In this document: positions 26,337 through 42,099 of the stretch, piece after piece
How the letters are laid out: the number at the start of each line of letters is the position of its first letter
Numbering within the stretch: position 1 is the first letter of the stretch
IMG/VR virus record: IMGVR_UViG_3300020020_000089
Location: 1-42,099 of that record
Direction: 5' to 3' (one strand)
DNA length: 42,099 nt
DNA from: a virus
Translations under genes and position numbers: made by a program
The notes under the pieces: generated by a model
The model's input: the letters and a program-made list of their open reading frames with translations, nothing else
Database searches by the model: none
Told to the model about the DNA's origin: nothing

Positions 26337-26828
26337 TCATCCCTGCGGCTCCTTCGCGGGCTCCGGGGCTGTCCGCGCCTCTCCTAATCCCGGCCGTGCA
26401 TACGCCACCATGCCGTAACAGCGATTACAGATGATGGCGTTCGGGCCACCGCAATGCACGCACTTCGACCGCTCGTCCTCTCTGGGGTGGGCCTCCGGCT
26501 CGTCAGGGGGTGCAGCCCGCGTTGCGAGACAGTCAGGGCACGTCACATAGGCCCATTCGTAGGCCGCTGTCCCGCGTTCCTTGGTTCGCTTGCCACACGC
26601 CCCGCCGTCGAAAGCACCAATGTAATGCTTGCGGGGCGGCTCGTCAGGGGGCGGGGAGGCGAGGGAGGCGAGTGCTGGATCGATAATCTCTTTCACACGC
26701 TTCGCCACTGATGGCACGAACAGCGGCACGCCCGCACGCTGACCGGTTGTTCGTAAGGCGTGGTCCGCATGAGCCTGAAGTTCCAATAGCGCGGTCACGA
26801 GCCTCTGGTAGACGGGATCAGACACCAC
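26337..26828 (-). CDS. Zinc-ribbon hypothetical protein
   Basis: 163 residues from a GTG at 26828 with GAGGG five bases before it; overlaps the upstream gene by 11 bases. A first cysteine set (GGACGKRT, TCPDC) and a second pair of CxxC (KCVHCGG, ICNRCYG) suggest one or two zinc ribbons. The middle is Pro/Glu rich. Last gene of the replication/modification block, just before the terminase gap. Function unknown. Confidence 0.6.
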   Translation of the reverse strand: MVSDPVYQRLVTALLELQAHADHALRTTGQRAGVPLFVPSVAKRVKEIIDPALASLASPPPDEPPRKHYIGAFDGGACGKRTKERGTAAYEWAYVTCPDCLATRAAPPDEPEAHPREDERSKCVHCGGPNAIICNRCYGMVAYARPGLGEARTAPEPAKEPQG

Positions 26829-27675
26829 AAAAACCCTCGCATTCGTTGCGGAACTTGGAGTGCATCGTTAATTGCGCCCGCTGCATGTTGACGCGCCCAG
26901 GTTTCAACTTCACGAGATGGAGAGGCTGCCGGGAGTCGTGGAAGTACGGCACACTCCGCAGTTCTGTGGTGCCGGTGTACGCGCCCTGAAGTTCCGTCTC
27001 CTTGTCGATCGCGTCCAGCATCTCGTCCGGTGTTAACGCCAGCCACGAGTCATCGTCTCGAAATGGGCAGTACGTGCAGGCCGAGCGCGGCGGATCGGGA
27101 TAGCCGTGACTGCTCAGCCACCCGTGACAGTCGCCCCGCGTCATCCCGGCATCAATCAGCGGCCATGTCGCCTCAATCCAGGGGAGCGCGGCTGGCTTCA
27201 TGCGGTCGGCCTCGTCGCTGCTAATGCCGATCCACATCTCAACCAACACGCCATGTCGCTTGGTCACGCGCTTCAGGCCGAGCAGTTCTCGGCATTTCCG
27301 CGTCACCGGCTCGACCTTGAAGGTGCGCGTGCATTGCCGCTTGCCCATGCCCTTTTGCAGCCCCTCAACGGTGTAGACCGGGATCCCGGTGGAGATGTAC
27401 GTCCGCTGCCCGTCCCGCGTGCGCCGCACCGCCGACGCAGACCGCCAGAGGTTCCCCTTCGTGACGACATGGGTCGGAAACGGCAATCCGCCGGCTTGAT
27501 ACTCCCCAGGGATGGCGCGATACGCGAGCCGGCCGCGGGGCGTCCGATACGACTCGTAGCCCGCGCCCGTGAGCCATTGGAGATGCTGGTACACGGCGAG
27601 CGGCTCCCCCTGCGTGCAGGCAAAGATGGCGGCGTCCGGTGCCGGCAGTTCGCCGTGCTTAGCCATGAGCGCCAT
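26818..27675 (-). pseudogene. PAPS-reductase-like (adenine nucleotide alpha hydrolase) protein lacking its PP-loop
   Basis: 285 residues from the ATG at 27675 (MALMAKHGELP). Downstream the phage PAPS-reductase/DndC-like family is plain: QCTRTFKVEPVTRKCRELLG, VEMWIGISSDEADRMKPA, the SACTYCPF cysteine pair and the C-terminal NECEGFCGV. In the family a PP-loop of the LSLGAGVQST kind should stand directly before MALMA; here that place holds unrelated sequence which is a 34-bp inverted copy of part of the VRR-NUC gene. No usable start codon leads in upstream. ATP-pyrophosphatase activity is therefore unlikely, and I call it a 5'-truncated gene, although the product may still be made and bind a partner. 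Confidence 0.7.
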
Positions 27676-27709
27676 GGCACGGGGATTCCGGATCTCGTAG
27701 TGGGAAAGG
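27676..27709. repeat. 34-bp inverted repeat, copy 1
   Basis: Reverse complement of 28652-28685 with two mismatches. It abuts the ATG of the truncated PAPS-reductase-like gene. Read on the plus strand it encodes GTGIPDLVVGK, the same peptide as the VRR-NUC nuclease, and the frame continues for about 30 more plausible residues to a stop near 27801. Confidence 0.85.
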
Positions 27710-27924
27710 TCCCGTGGACGGGCTTCTACGTCGACAGAGACCGAGACCGACAGAAGTTTGAGCGGGATTGGAAAGCAGGAAAGCTGGTGGCGCCCTGGTG
27801 AGAGCGTCCACCGTAAGTCCTTCCACGAACGTGGATGACAAAGCTGAGTATGGCAGAACCGAGCGTTCGGTTCAAGCACGGCGGGGCTGGTGGTCGGCGC
27901 GTAACGCGAGCGCCCGCTCCGAAA
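27678..27924. other. Gene-poor gap with promoter and palindromes
   Basis: About 247 bases between the Dam gene and the truncated PAPS-reductase-like gene. It holds a promoter-like pair with an operator-like palindrome (27847-27875), a CCACG-AA-CGTGG hairpin (27823-27834) and the inverted-repeat copy. The plus-strand frame ending near 27801 may be the 3' remnant of a nuclease gene. Confidence 0.5.
27847..27875 (-). promoter_or_regulatory. Promoter with palindromic spacer
   Basis: Minus strand TTGAAC (27875-27870), 17 bases, CATACT (27852-27847). The palindrome GAACCGA-GCGT-TCGGTTC (27856-27873) fills the spacer and overlaps the -35 box, so it may be an operator for another regulator. Confidence 0.5.
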
Positions 27925-31649: not shown

Positions 31650-31807
31650 CGCCGCTCTTCGCGCTCGTCGCCAGGATGGCCGTAGGTGCGGCCGTCGTCC
31701 TCGTCCCGCTCGCGCGGATCATCGTGCGACCGCTCGCAGACCTCCGCGCCCTCGAGCTCGGCGTGCAGTTTCTCGCAGAGCATGTAGGGATACTGCTTTT
31801 TAGGCAT
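31631..31807 (-). CDS. Small acidic hypothetical protein
   Basis: 58 residues from the ATG at 31807, overlapping the upstream stop (TAATG). The C-terminal 35 residues are very rich in Asp, Glu and Arg (RSHDDPRERDEDDGR), suggesting a disordered tail. No family recognised. It overlaps the HNH gene by 19 bases. Confidence 0.5.
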   Translation of the reverse strand: MPKKQYPYMLCEKLHAELEGAEVCERSHDDPRERDEDDGRTYGHPGDEREERRWAGRE

Positions 31808-32229
31808 TACGCGGCCCTCGCAATCTGCCATTCGTCCGGCGACTGGATCGCGACGCCGAGCTCGGACGGCGCCCACACCAGCACCCAATCGATCAAGTGC
31901 CGGAACTCTTCCACCGACAGATCGGAGCTCGACGCCTTGACCGGGATCGCCTGACCCGTTGGCCCCGGCGTGTAACCGAAGCACTCGCCGAGCAGCGCAT
32001 AGTGCATCTGGTTCGGGCTGTACCCGCAGTGCTCCGCGAGCCGTGGCACGGGCTCAGCCCACCAGTACGAGTTTTGGTCTAGCGTCCGCTTGCTCTTCGG
32101 CTTCCGAAAGACCAGCTCGACGCGCTGCCCGGCGAACTGCCGGCAGACTTCGCCAAATCGTCCGTTGGCGTCATGCCGGAGCACGCCGAGCTCGTCCACG
32201 CGCGCCGGCACCACGAATTGCGCAGCCAT
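31807..32229 (-). CDS. NinB-like recombination protein (tentative)
   Basis: 140 residues from the ATG at 32229, overlapping the upstream stop (TGATG). Conserved-looking blocks are KRTLDQNSYWW, a HCGYSPNQMHYALLGECFG segment and a C-terminal SVEEFRHLIDWVLVWAPSELG. This pattern (R-S/T-L-x-Q-N-x-Y-W then E-E-F-x-x-L-I) is that of the NinB/Orf-type proteins of temperate phages, which help recombination by binding SSB-coated ssDNA. Assignment is by memory of the pattern only, but the neighbours (exonuclease, annealase, SSB-tail protein) agree. Confidence 0.6.
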   Translation of the reverse strand: MAAQFVVPARVDELGVLRHDANGRFGEVCRQFAGQRVELVFRKPKSKRTLDQNSYWWAEPVPRLAEHCGYSPNQMHYALLGECFGYTPGPTGQAIPVKASSSDLSVEEFRHLIDWVLVWAPSELGVAIQSPDEWQIARAA

Positions 32230-32386: not shown

Positions 32387-32875
32387 TTAGAACGGAATCT
32401 CGGAGTCCGGCAGATCGGTTACGTCCTCGAACCCGCTCACGTCGAATCCGCCGTTGTAGGCCGGATCGATCGGGCCAGGCTCCGGACCCGCGTCAGCCTT
32501 CCAGCCGCCGCGGATCCGCTTCGCCCATCCGCGCGCCCGTGCTGCGTCCTTGCGCTTGTAGAGCGCGACCGGCTTACCGCTGGCCGTCTCTTCGTTGTTG
32601 GCCTCGGCCTGCTTGGCGAAGTACTCGAACGTGCCCGCGAGCAGATCGAGGAACTCGGCCGGGCACTGGCTCATCGTCAGCCCCTTGCAGGAGTCGCCGC
32701 GCCAGTCGCGCGGGTTGAACTTGACCTGCGGATCCCCATACTGCGAATCCAGATCGCGATCATCGGCGACCTCGAGCCCGCCGCCGCCGCCGGCCGACTG
32801 CCGCAGCAGCGCCTTGAGCGAGGCATCGATGCTCTGCAACAGCCGGAGCGTTTCGACGCGCGGATCGGTTGCCAT
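32387..32875 (-). CDS. Phage protein with an SSB-like C-terminal tip
   Basis: 162 residues from the ATG at 32875, overlapping the annealase stop (TAATG). After a short helix and a Gly run, the core (KFNPRDWRGDSCKGLTMSQ to GWAKRIRGGWK) is a compact basic domain found in many temperate phages near recombination genes. The last residues, acidic and ending DLPDSEIPF, look like the DDDIPF tip by which bacterial SSB recruits repair proteins. It may be an SSB substitute or an SSB mimic. No OB-fold motif could be confirmed. Confidence 0.6.
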   Translation of the reverse strand: MATDPRVETLRLLQSIDASLKALLRQSAGGGGGLEVADDRDLDSQYGDPQVKFNPRDWRGDSCKGLTMSQCPAEFLDLLAGTFEYFAKQAEANNEETASGKPVALYKRKDAARARGWAKRIRGGWKADAGPEPGPIDPAYNGGFDVSGFEDVTDLPDSEIPF

Positions 32876-34464
32876 TACGCCGCCCCTTCCGTGAGCTCTT
32901 CCGGCGCATAGAGCCCGAAGAGAATATCGGCGTAGACGAGCCGCGCGAGCTTGGACGACGCCCGCGCCGCCAGCATGTCCGCGGGATGCTTGCCCCACGA
33001 GGACTTGCTCCACTTGAGATCGTCACCGACGAACGCCGCGCGACCCTCCGCGATCGTGTAGGACAGCCGCACCGGCTCCGGCTCGTCCTTGCGCCACGTC
33101 TCGAACGTCGCGATCTCGGCCGTCCGCTCGACAATGCGGAAATACTTCGCCGCGCCCGACCGCAGCACCAGGCCGCGCATCGCATCGGCCGCCAGCGCGT
33201 GCTTGCCTTCGATGACATGGAACGCGCGCAGGGAGGCGATAGCCTGCAGACCGAGCTCCCGGCCCGCGAGCACCGTCGAGAGCACCGCCTGCGCCGTGCC
33301 GTAGCCGTTGAACATGCGCGCCTGATACATCTGGTTGGCGAGCTGGAACGCCTGCCCGAGCGAGCGCGGCTCGAGCTGCCGCTCGAACTCCACCGGCGCC
33401 GGCGCGAGGCCCGTTGACTCGATCGCCTGTCCCTGCCCCTTGACCATGCCGAGTGCCTGCACGTTCGCCGCGGCAGCCTCCGTGACCGTCACCGGCGGCC
33501 CCGGCTTCATAGCCTCGAGCGCCGCCACGGCACCCGACGCCGCCGCGTGCTCGACCAGCGCACCAACCAGGGAGCGCGGCGCATCGTGGACGCCCACGAC
33601 TGCGGCAACGCTCTGCTTCGCCTCTTCCAGTGTCATCTGCCCCATGTCGCTCATTTCTTCCTCCATCGGCGCCACGTTGCGCGGCGCGCGTTCTGCTGTG
33701 ACTTCCTCAAACGGAATCGGCGCATCGGTGCGCAGCGTGATCAACTGGCAGACCGTCGCCCGGCGCGCGTCGAACTCTTTGAGCGCCGTCGCCAGCGCCG
33801 GCTTGAATGCCACAGGATGCTTAGACAGCGACTCGTAGACGGCCTCAAGATCGCCGTAGGCGCGCAGCAGTTCTTTGGCCTTGACGGGCCCGACGCCCTT
33901 CGCGCCCTTCACGTTGTCCGCGGAATCGCCGACCAGCGCCAGGTAATCGCGCATCTGCCACGGCTTGATGCCGAACTTGGCTTCTACGGCGTCAAGGTCG
34001 TAGACGTTCCCCGACGCCGGCGACAACACGCGCACCTCGCCGCCGCCGAGATGCGGCCCGACCAGATACAGCAGATCCTTGTCGGCCGAGACGATCAGCA
34101 CGTCGAGATTGCGCGGCGCACGAACCGCCGTCATGGCCGCCGTCGCGATCAGATCGTCAGCCTCGAACCCCGGCACCCACCACACCGGATAGCCGTCAGC
34201 CTCGAGCTGCTCTTTTGCCAGCGCGATCTGATGGTAGAGCGCCGCCGGCGCCGCTTCGCGCTGCGCCTTGTAGGACGGATCGATCTCGGCGCGAAACGAC
34301 TTGCCCTTGTCGCAGCAGATCGCCGCGTGCAGATGGTTCGCCGTCAGCGACCGCACGCGCTCGACCATCTTCGTGCTGGCCGCATTCGGATCGGGCTCGG
34401 CCGCCGATGTCAGAAAAATCGGATACGCGATAGAGGACAGGTCGATCAGGGCAATCTCGGTCAT
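32875..34464 (-). CDS. Fusion of 5'-3' exonuclease (FEN/PIN type) and ssDNA-annealing recombinase
   Basis: 529 residues in one uninterrupted frame. Residues 1-255 are a Pol I-type 5'-3' exonuclease: D8, EADDL at 101-105, SADKD at 126-130 and the H3TH GDSADNVKGAKGVG at 179-192. Residues 272-529 look like a RecT-type annealing protein: GRELGLQAIASLRAFHVIEGK-type block, AKYFRIVERTAE, and SSWGKHPADMLAARASSK near the end. Exonuclease plus annealase is the two-part lambda Red/RecET logic, normally in two genes. Between the domains the DNA keeps GGAGG and an ATG (33654) with ideal spacing, so the annealase may also be made alone. Confidence 0.8.
   Translation of the reverse strand: MTEIALIDLSSIAYPIFLTSAAEPDPNAASTKMVERVRSLTANHLHAAICCDKGKSFRAEIDPSYKAQREAAPAALYHQIALAKEQLEADGYPVWWVPGFEADDLIATAAMTAVRAPRNLDVLIVSADKDLLYLVGPHLGGGEVRVLSPASGNVYDLDAVEAKFGIKPWQMRDYLALVGDSADNVKGAKGVGPVKAKELLRAYGDLEAVYESLSKHPVAFKPALATALKEFDARRATVCQLITLRTDAPIPFEEVTAERAPRNVAPMEEEMSDMGQMTLEEAKQSVAAVVGVHDAPRSLVGALVEHAAASGAVAALEAMKPGPPVTVTEAAAANVQALGMVKGQGQAIESTGLAPAPVEFERQLEPRSLGQAFQLANQMYQARMFNGYGTAQAVLSTVLAGRELGLQAIASLRAFHVIEGKHALAADAMRGLVLRSGAAKYFRIVERTAEIATFETWRKDEPEPVRLSYTIAEGRAAFVGDDLKWSKSSWGKHPADMLAARASSKLARLVYADILFGLYAPEELTEGAA
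33652..33664 (-). promoter_or_regulatory. Internal ribosome binding site and ATG at the domain joint
   Basis: GGAGG (33664-33660), five bases, then ATG (33654-33652), codon 271 of the fusion, in the same frame. Starting here gives a 259-residue annealase alone. It is what remains if two coupled genes fused by loss of the first stop codon. Confidence 0.6.
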
Positions 34465-39964: not shown

Positions 39965-40363
39965 TCAGCGCAACTCCATGAGCGCGACCGCCGCCGCGCG
40001 ATACCGTGTCAGATACTCAGCCGCCGGCAGGATCGATCCGTCCGTCGAATCGGCAATCACGCCGTAATCGAGCGCCACGAGATGCTGCCGGAAGGGCTTT
40101 TGATAGTGCTTCGATCCGCGCTTCCACCGGATCGCCAGCACGCCGCTATCGTCCTCGAGGCTCGGCTCAACGTTCAGCCGCGGCGCGAACCCGAGCGCCA
40201 CCGCCATACGCCCCACGTCCTGCCATGTTGCCCCGCACTTGCCGCGTCGCGCCTTGTCGATCTCGGCCGCTACGAGGTACACATCCTCATAGGCGAGCTC
40301 GGCGAACGTCGCCAGCGAGCAAATGCCGCAATCGCCGTTCGCCCGCTGCAGGACGAGCCTCAC
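39965..40363 (-). CDS. C39-like cysteine peptidase
   Basis: 132 residues from a GTG overlapping the phosphoesterase stop (GTGA). The N-terminal ANGDCGICSLATFAE has the Cys of papain-like C39 peptidases (C12), with Q6 as oxyanion partner; the His lies in RQHLVALDYG and the acidic partner in the following Asp. No signal peptide or transporter is fused, unlike bacteriocin-processing C39 domains. Free C39-like domains occur in phages with unknown substrate, perhaps host proteins. Confidence 0.65.
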   Translation of the reverse strand: MRLVLQRANGDCGICSLATFAELAYEDVYLVAAEIDKARRGKCGATWQDVGRMAVALGFAPRLNVEPSLEDDSGVLAIRWKRGSKHYQKPFRQHLVALDYGVIADSTDGSILPAAEYLTRYRAAAVALMELR

Positions 40364-41499
40364 GCCGCCTTACGCTCGGCCGCCGGCCCGTCATCGAACA
40401 GGACAGGCCAGGTGCAGGTACGGCCGCGCTTCTTGTCGATCAGAAAGAGCGCCTGCTTCGGCGGCTCGTAATCGGCTTTGATGCTCAGCGCAAACGAGCT
40501 GTAGCCGATCAGCGAGCCGTTGCAGACGAAGTTACCGCCGTCGCGCAGCTGATGAAAGTGCCCGAACACGTCGAGATCCGCCCGGCGGCCCTTGTTCCAC
40601 TGCCCGATCGCCTTGTTCACCGGGATATAGATCCCGCCGACGCCCCCGCCGTACTTGATGGCGTGCCCGTGCTGGAACCGGATCAACGAGTCGTAGACCT
40701 GCACATAGCTGTGCATCCCCTCCGGAATCAGGAACCGCACGCGCGGCTCATGCCGGAAGTAGGCCGCCAGGTGCGAATACATCAGGAACTCGAGGCTGTG
40801 CCCGTTCTCCGTGCCGAACCGCGTCGTCCGCGTCGTCCGGCCGTGGTTGCCGGAGTGGCAGGGAATCACGAAATTGAGCGTCGAATTATCCAGTAGAAAC
40901 TGGATGCCCGAGGCGAGGAACCCCTGCGCCGTCACGATGGCGTGCATCGGCGTCTGCTCGTTGACTTCGGGGAACTCTTCGTGAATGTCGTTGCTGATGA
41001 AATCCCCGAGCAGCGCGAGGACCATCGTCTCGATCCGAATGTCCTTCTGCAGCAGCGTCGTGAGCCGCAGCCCGGACTGGAAAAACTGTGTCGCGCGCCG
41101 CTTAGCGATCGCCAGGTTGTAGCGATTGAGCCCGCCGACCTCGGCGCCTACGTTTTCCTCGACGTGCCAATCGGACGCCACGAGGACCACGGTCCCTTCG
41201 GCGTTCTTGCTCGGCTGCTTGGGTTCGATAGCGAACGTATCGACCCGCTCGCCGAGCTGTCCGAGCGCCTCGAGCGCCTGCTCCTGCTGCGCAATCGTCT
41301 CGAGCGCCGCCGTGTATTTCTGCTTGAGCGCCGCGAGCGCGTCCGCGTGCCGAATCTTGTCGCGATCCGCCGCGACCAACTGCGGCGCCCGCACTGGCTC
41401 CACAGGCGCCACGTCTGCCCCGCGGGCGCGCCAGCACGCCCGGCACTTCTCGACCCCGGCCTTGCTCACCGAATGCCCGCAGGCGCCTGTGTATTCCAT
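40360..41499 (-). CDS. Calcineurin-like metallophosphoesterase with N-terminal zinc motif
   Basis: 379 residues. A short zinc motif CGHS ... CRACW (residues 7-22) is followed by a Gln/Glu coiled coil (55-85) and the phosphoesterase domain: SDWH (D110, H112), LLGDFIS, SGNHGR and the final GHFHQ. All metal ligands are present. It lies in the accessory block with the C39-like and kinase genes. Substrate may be DNA (SbcD/Mre11-like) or a phosphoprotein; the coiled coil slightly favours a DNA-related job. Confidence 0.82.
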   Translation of the reverse strand: MEYTGACGHSVSKAGVEKCRACWRARGADVAPVEPVRAPQLVAADRDKIRHADALAALKQKYTAALETIAQQEQALEALGQLGERVDTFAIEPKQPSKNAEGTVVLVASDWHVEENVGAEVGGLNRYNLAIAKRRATQFFQSGLRLTTLLQKDIRIETMVLALLGDFISNDIHEEFPEVNEQTPMHAIVTAQGFLASGIQFLLDNSTLNFVIPCHSGNHGRTTRTTRFGTENGHSLEFLMYSHLAAYFRHEPRVRFLIPEGMHSYVQVYDSLIRFQHGHAIKYGGGVGGIYIPVNKAIGQWNKGRRADLDVFGHFHQLRDGGNFVCNGSLIGYSSFALSIKADYEPPKQALFLIDKKRGRTCTWPVLFDDGPAAERKAA

Positions 41500-41888: not shown

Positions 41889-42032
41889 TTAGGCGTCGAG
41901 CTTGAGCAGCTTCCGCCACCGTTCGACATCGGCGATGTACCAGTCCCACATCTGGCGCTTCTGCTCCGGCGTCTGCCCGCGCATGGCCTCGAGCACGACC
42001 TCGAGCGCGAGCTCGATTACTCGAAACGGCAT
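41889..42032 (-). CDS. Small helical protein downstream of the holin candidate
   Basis: 47 residues from an ATG overlapping the holin-candidate stop (TAATG). Helical, with PEQKRQMWDWYIADVERWRK, a pattern that recurs in short proteins next to holins in many phages. Its first 46 bases also appear at the other end of the window (1-46). Role unknown; possibly an antiholin or virion accessory. Confidence 0.65.
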   Translation of the reverse strand: MPFRVIELALEVVLEAMRGQTPEQKRQMWDWYIADVERWRKLLKLDA

Positions 42033-42099
42033 TACTCGCCCTTCCCCTGCATGACACTCGGTGTCGGCACGGCGGGATCCGCGACCATCTGCTCGACTT
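41987..42099. repeat. Terminal direct repeat, right copy
   Basis: Identical to 1-113 except C at 42086. Bases 42032-42099 repeat the C-terminal coding part of the 100-residue membrane gene. Confidence 0.95.

Follow-up and report, generated by a model that had tools for sequence, protein, structure and literature searches.

Lambda Red biology has long asked how the exonuclease and the annealase of a recombination system are coupled, and the locus described here poses that question within a single gene. A frame of 529 codons, open throughout and located at positions 32875-34464 on the minus strand, encodes a protein of 529 aa in which a 5′-3′ exonuclease-type domain is followed by a RecT/Redbeta-type domain. 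Is this a true fusion, how might its two halves cooperate, and is a free annealase also translated from the same gene?

The window, the whole stretch of 42,099 nt that was analysed, is one virus record (IMGVR_UViG_3300020020_000089) and a single metagenome contig. It is probably a complete genome of ~42 kb, as a 113-nt direct repeat, 99% identical in its two copies, is present at both record ends (1-113 and 41987-42099). Genes for portal, major head and scaffold proteins, a DnaB-type helicase, NinB and an integrase, together with a repressor-like gene, identify the virus as a temperate tailed phage. The start ATG of the fused gene overlaps the stop codon of the preceding 73-aa gene in the sequence TAATG, and its stop codon overlaps the ATG of the following gene, again in TAATG, within a tight gene run that also includes the DnaB-type helicase and a primosomal protein. 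The following gene (32387-32875, minus strand) encodes a 162-aa protein that has no family match but ends in DLPDSEIPF, similar to the acidic tip of bacterial SSB. An SSB-like tip is present on the ORF downstream of the fusion at 11 of 71 fused loci, as compared with 21 of the 15,092 ORFs across all loci, and the 162-aa protein may be a phage SSB or may imitate the SSB tail. Shortly past the fusion, positions 31807-32229 (minus strand) encode a NinB/Orf-type recombination mediator (PHROG 72, 5e-14; also 1e-15). Judged from their sequences, both neighbours would fit a recombination mechanism. Elsewhere in the window, a second predicted nuclease is encoded at 40360-41499 (minus strand), with matches to PHROG 284 (exonuclease) and PHROG 704 (DNA repair exonuclease) and with calcineurin-like phosphoesterase motifs, recognized by eye, that are SbcD-like. 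Positions 26818-27879 (minus strand) hold a phosphoadenosine phosphosulfate reductase-like phage gene (PHROG 424). A promoter scan found nothing.

Two domains in one reading frame

Residues 1-259 (33688-34464, minus strand) form the nuclease half. Pfam models 5_3_exonuc_N (1e-27) and 5_3_exonuc (2e-19), both above their curated cut-offs, cover residues 4-258, and in an alignment of 50 fusions the acidic, metal-binding residues D8, D52, E101, D104, D128, D130, D180 and D183 are invariant and D103 is nearly so. Taq Pol I (1.7e-23) and Xni/ExoIX (1.5e-20) are its nearest relatives of known structure, with T5 FEN further away (7e-5). The original prediction had named this half a FEN/PIN-type 5′-3′ exonuclease, and the two Pfam matches and the conserved acidic residues bear this out; the half is assigned to the FEN/53EXO 5′ nucleases, with predicted PIN-like and H3TH domains and the acidic set present. 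At two other loci, L107 (3629-5710) and L108 (1384-3465), a 694-codon frame encodes a FEN domain and ~360 residues without a Pfam match, and is perhaps another nuclease fusion.

The two halves are joined by a poorly conserved linker (approximately residues 260-345; 33433-33687, minus strand) that varies from 33 to 193 aa among the first 65 fusions. Disorder is predicted here, with pLDDT below 50 over residues 263-365, and the model of the whole protein is of low quality (pTM 0.48) and uninformative on how the two domains face each other.

The annealing half, residues 345-529 (32878-33432, minus strand), matches PHROG 4171 (RecT-like ssDNA annealing protein) over residues 369-523, at 2e-17 to 8e-17. 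The window protein alone scores below the cut-off of the Pfam RecT model, which matches 55 of 73 relatives of the annealing domain (best 9e-10). A PDB sequence search with just six annealases had given no match, and structure prediction from six sequences a poor annealase model. With 73 annealing domains, a deep profile found lambda Redbeta in the PDB (7ujl, 1e-5) and the AF2 model of the domain reached a pLDDT of 89. With this model, Foldseek returned lambda Redbeta as the sole PDB match below 1e-3, and VIA-align placed Redbeta first (Z 8.8 over 137 residues), followed by RAD52 (6.5), RecT (6.3) and Sak (5.9), which are interspersed with dsRNA-binding domains of similar Z. The half is RecT/Redbeta-type in sequence and RAD52-superfamily annealase-like in its modelled fold, and annealing activity is predicted. 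The RecT-type identity proposed at the outset is upheld by these profile and model matches, and a check for a non-recombinase fold returned a recombinase fold instead, with lambda Redbeta the best match. Each part of the fused protein falls in a known class.

Distribution of the fusion

Searches of IMG/VR with each half identified 71 further distinct fused proteins, 72 including that of the window. All have one open frame throughout and none has a stop codon at the joint. Those that were aligned to the window protein are 24-66% identical to it, and the frame is kept through the linker. The fusion is, by this divergence and count, old and common in uncultured phages. With 71 other distinct fusions in separate metagenome assemblies, and with an over-represented Shine-Dalgarno (SD) sequence and ATG at the joint (see below), chance is excluded. 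The single-frame fusion seen originally is confirmed. It had also been suggested that the gene looks like a fusion made by loss of a stop codon, but a recent loss in a lambda Red/RecET-like pair does not agree with a fusion common to phages whose proteins are as little as 24% identical, and both this and an assembly error were rejected in view of the 71 fused relatives. In a tree of annealing domains, fused and unfused forms lie on opposite sides of a single branch, although its support is weak (62/43), so that one joining event is enough.

Annotated phages gave no example of the fusion: among 50,697 records, searched with three divergent queries, no record covered 80% of a query. Nor did the bacterial loci examined give one; a search of bacterial genomes with annealase patterns hit 30 stretches, none of them a relative, and the best 80 among the nuclease matches had no annealing domain by profile. 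UniProt holds one example, A0A6J5MUB0 (462 aa, uncultured Caudovirales phage; predicted structure in BFVD), with an annealing domain 50% identical to that of the window and evidently the same architecture. Its name, 'PIN_53EXO domain containing protein', refers to the nuclease half and leaves out the annealing half; standard annotation hides the fusion family. In the open-access literature, which leaves out most subscription papers, we found no account of a 53EXO-RecT single-chain fusion, nor of an exchange of FEN for PD-(D/E)XK nucleases, a missing tail or a nested start.

Unfused relatives of the annealing domain

None of the 25 records with an unfused annealase yielded a FEN domain and 10 yielded a PD-(D/E)XK nuclease, whereas YqaJ and PDDEXK_1 are above cut-off in none of the 37 records with the fusion. 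At one locus (L244), the unfused annealase adjoins a YqaJ nuclease. In two cultured actinophages, Thermobifida phage P1312 and Microbacterium phage Antuna, an unfused annealase gene and a neighbouring exonuclease gene, annotated in P1312 as exodeoxyribonuclease VIII, overlap by 4 nt. As unfused relatives pair their annealase with the unrelated PD-(D/E)XK class, the nuclease was also exchanged when the two halves were joined, which further opposes an origin by recent stop-codon loss in such a pair. A two-gene combination of FEN and RecT, in reverse order, is present at L285 (1971-4214), where the gene for a FEN nuclease stands on its own after a RecT-like gene with a C-terminal tail.

A point overlooked in the earlier work on this DNA is that the fusions have no C-terminal docking region. 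The annealing core is followed by only 0-12 residues in all 70 complete fusions, as compared with 86-245 in all 37 unfused relatives. The C-terminal domain of lambda Redbeta binds lambda exonuclease and SSB, and is resembled by Orf (PMC8303780); when it is removed, annealing persists but recombination fails (PMC5052646). On the simplest reading, the tether would have taken over the docking role of this absent tail. NinB is encoded in 6 of the 37 records with the fusion and in none of the 25 with an unfused annealase, too weak a difference for NinB to be a general stand-in for the absent domain, and this idea was dropped.

Translation start signals at the joint

The sequence GGAGG (33664-33660), a 5-nt spacer (AAGAA) and an in-frame ATG (33654-33652) lie together at 33652-33664 on the minus strand, about a dozen codons beyond the nuclease domain. 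The ATG is codon 271, and a product initiated there would be a free annealase of 259 aa. Sequence inspection confirms this candidate internal start as originally described. Among 60 non-redundant fusions, which have common ancestry and so are not independent trials, 27 have an in-frame ATG that is preceded by an SD and lies no more than 20 codons from where the nuclease ends; 3.9 ± 1.8 are expected by shuffling linker codons and 1.3 from windows inside folded domains. In PolA, a control in which this nuclease domain is joined to a different partner, there is 1 SD-led Met at positions 0 to +19 in 60 genes. Over the 20 positions that follow the nuclease in the 60 fusions, Met itself accounts for 0.038-0.063 of all codons, versus 0.003-0.030 in adjoining stretches. 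An SD of at least 4 bases, the criterion used, precedes 27 of the 61 Mets just after the nuclease versus 26 of 516 in folded domains, and SDs are not enriched before Mets elsewhere in the fused genes. Counted across the whole linker, the initial excess was mild (39 versus 31.2 ± 2.8) and became clear once split by position, with bins picked after a first listing had been seen.

Because acidic codons themselves produce SD-like strings, the sequences were also reshuffled with synonymous changes only. SD-led first Mets number 23 in the real genes versus 16.3 ± 2.1 after reshuffling (p 0.003), and the mRNA around the internal starts is less folded than its synonymous versions (mean z 0.67 ± 0.18). 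Much of the SD signal stems from an acidic Glu/Asp-Met stretch, possibly kept for protein reasons, and at the level of codons the excess is modest. The combination of SD and start codon within the frame is over-represented beyond chance in this family. The signal is genuine and lies in part at the nucleotide level. This speaks more for a functional internal start than for a fossil or a protein motif, and the internal start probably also supplies extra free annealase. The possibility of dual products, raised in the original prediction, gains support from this over-representation. By the criterion used, not every fusion would initiate internally, as 33 of the 60 have no ATG with an SD of at least 4 bases at the joint.

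A model for resection and annealing by one gene

We favour, with reasonable confidence, a complete SynExo recombinase, an exonuclease together with an annealase, encoded by one gene, where a covalent link stands in for docking and the internal start probably adds free annealase. At the ends or flaps of DNA, the FEN-type domain would strip the 5′ strand, and the tethered RecT/Redbeta-type domain, recognized by its fold and presumed active, would be brought to the 3′ single strand while this is being exposed and pair it with a complementary strand. The covalent link would do the job of the Redbeta C-terminal domain docking on lambda exonuclease. Initiation at the SD-led ATG just past the nuclease would also give free annealase, so that annealing subunits could outnumber nuclease subunits as the annealase polymerises. 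A point against this model is that the Redbeta C-terminal domain also binds SSB, which the fusion does not replace, and Orf/NinB accompanies the fusion in only 6 of 37 records. A more specific version, to which we give an even chance, is a two-component recombinase with built-in stoichiometry: the full-length protein would seed a polymer at the resected end, free annealase would extend it, and the tether would have replaced the docking domain across a large lineage of uncultured phages.

Several alternatives were weighed against this model. As the window is a single metagenome contig, an assembly or sequencing artefact might have deleted a stop codon between two genes, but 71 other distinct proteins from many assemblies have no stop, and their linkers keep the frame at 24-66% identity to the window protein; the probability of an artefact is negligible. 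The absence of an SD-led ATG from 33 of the 60 joints instead suits a 58-kDa fusion that acts alone, with the acidic stretch and Met serving the protein itself, as an acidic hinge or as a motif that binds, for example, SSB-like partners, and with no ribosome entry. Acidic codons by themselves do predict 16 of the 23 SD sites at first Mets, and some linkers resemble an SSB tail (DDDIAFAM in L005). Codon choice, however, favours the SD beyond what the amino acids require, and synonymous versions have stronger mRNA structure; Met is enriched at exactly this position, and PolA, with the same nuclease domain, has neither feature. We regard action by the fusion only as somewhat unlikely.

Less probable again, in our estimation, is a replication enzyme in which the FEN domain would trim RNA primers or flaps, like Pol I and T7 gp6, while the annealing domain tethers it to single strands at the fork, recombination being secondary. 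The nearest solved relatives are indeed the Pol I and Xni 5′ nucleases, and the same gene run holds the helicase and primosomal genes, but the adjacent NinB/Orf gene, and the fact that the fusion and RecE/YqaJ-type nucleases exclude each other among related phages, argue for recombination. The two roles are also compatible with each other.

As the two proteins are naturally tied here, with the docking region dropped and the nuclease class swapped, a single gene is enough to test the coupling model directly. An internal start, if functional, would be a natural dose control for a recombinase, and single-gene resect-and-anneal proteins are possible compact tools for recombineering.

Comparison with known systems

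T7 gp6, T5 D15 and the Pol I 5′ nuclease belong, like the fusion, to the FEN/53EXO class, but are not known to be joined to a RecT-type annealase. T7 gp6 acts in recombination and primer removal, and the T7 annealer, gp2.5, is an OB-fold protein. In the RecT-like/exonuclease pairs of P1312 and Antuna, the annealing domain is of the same family as in the fusion but the genes are separate. The candidate internal start of the window resembles those that give the nested products of T7 gene 4A/4B and Cas11. An internal start in T7 gene 4A/4B gives an extra C-terminal product. Cas11 likewise arises from an internal start, as an additional in-frame product that corresponds to the C-terminal part of a larger protein (PMC11899642).

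The closest parallels in mode of action are lambda Red (lambda exo and Redbeta) and Rac RecE/RecT, in which, as in the fusion, a 5′-3′ exonuclease is combined with a RecT/Redbeta-type annealase and resection followed by annealing is predicted. Lambda Red and RecET consist of two docking proteins with a PD-(D/E)XK nuclease, whereas the fusion is one chain with a nuclease of the FEN class; Redbeta has a C-terminal docking domain, and the fusion has no such domain. On present evidence, the fusion would therefore resemble lambda Red and RecET in its working but is not a member of either system, since it departs from them in three defining features: two proteins, nuclease class and C-terminal region.
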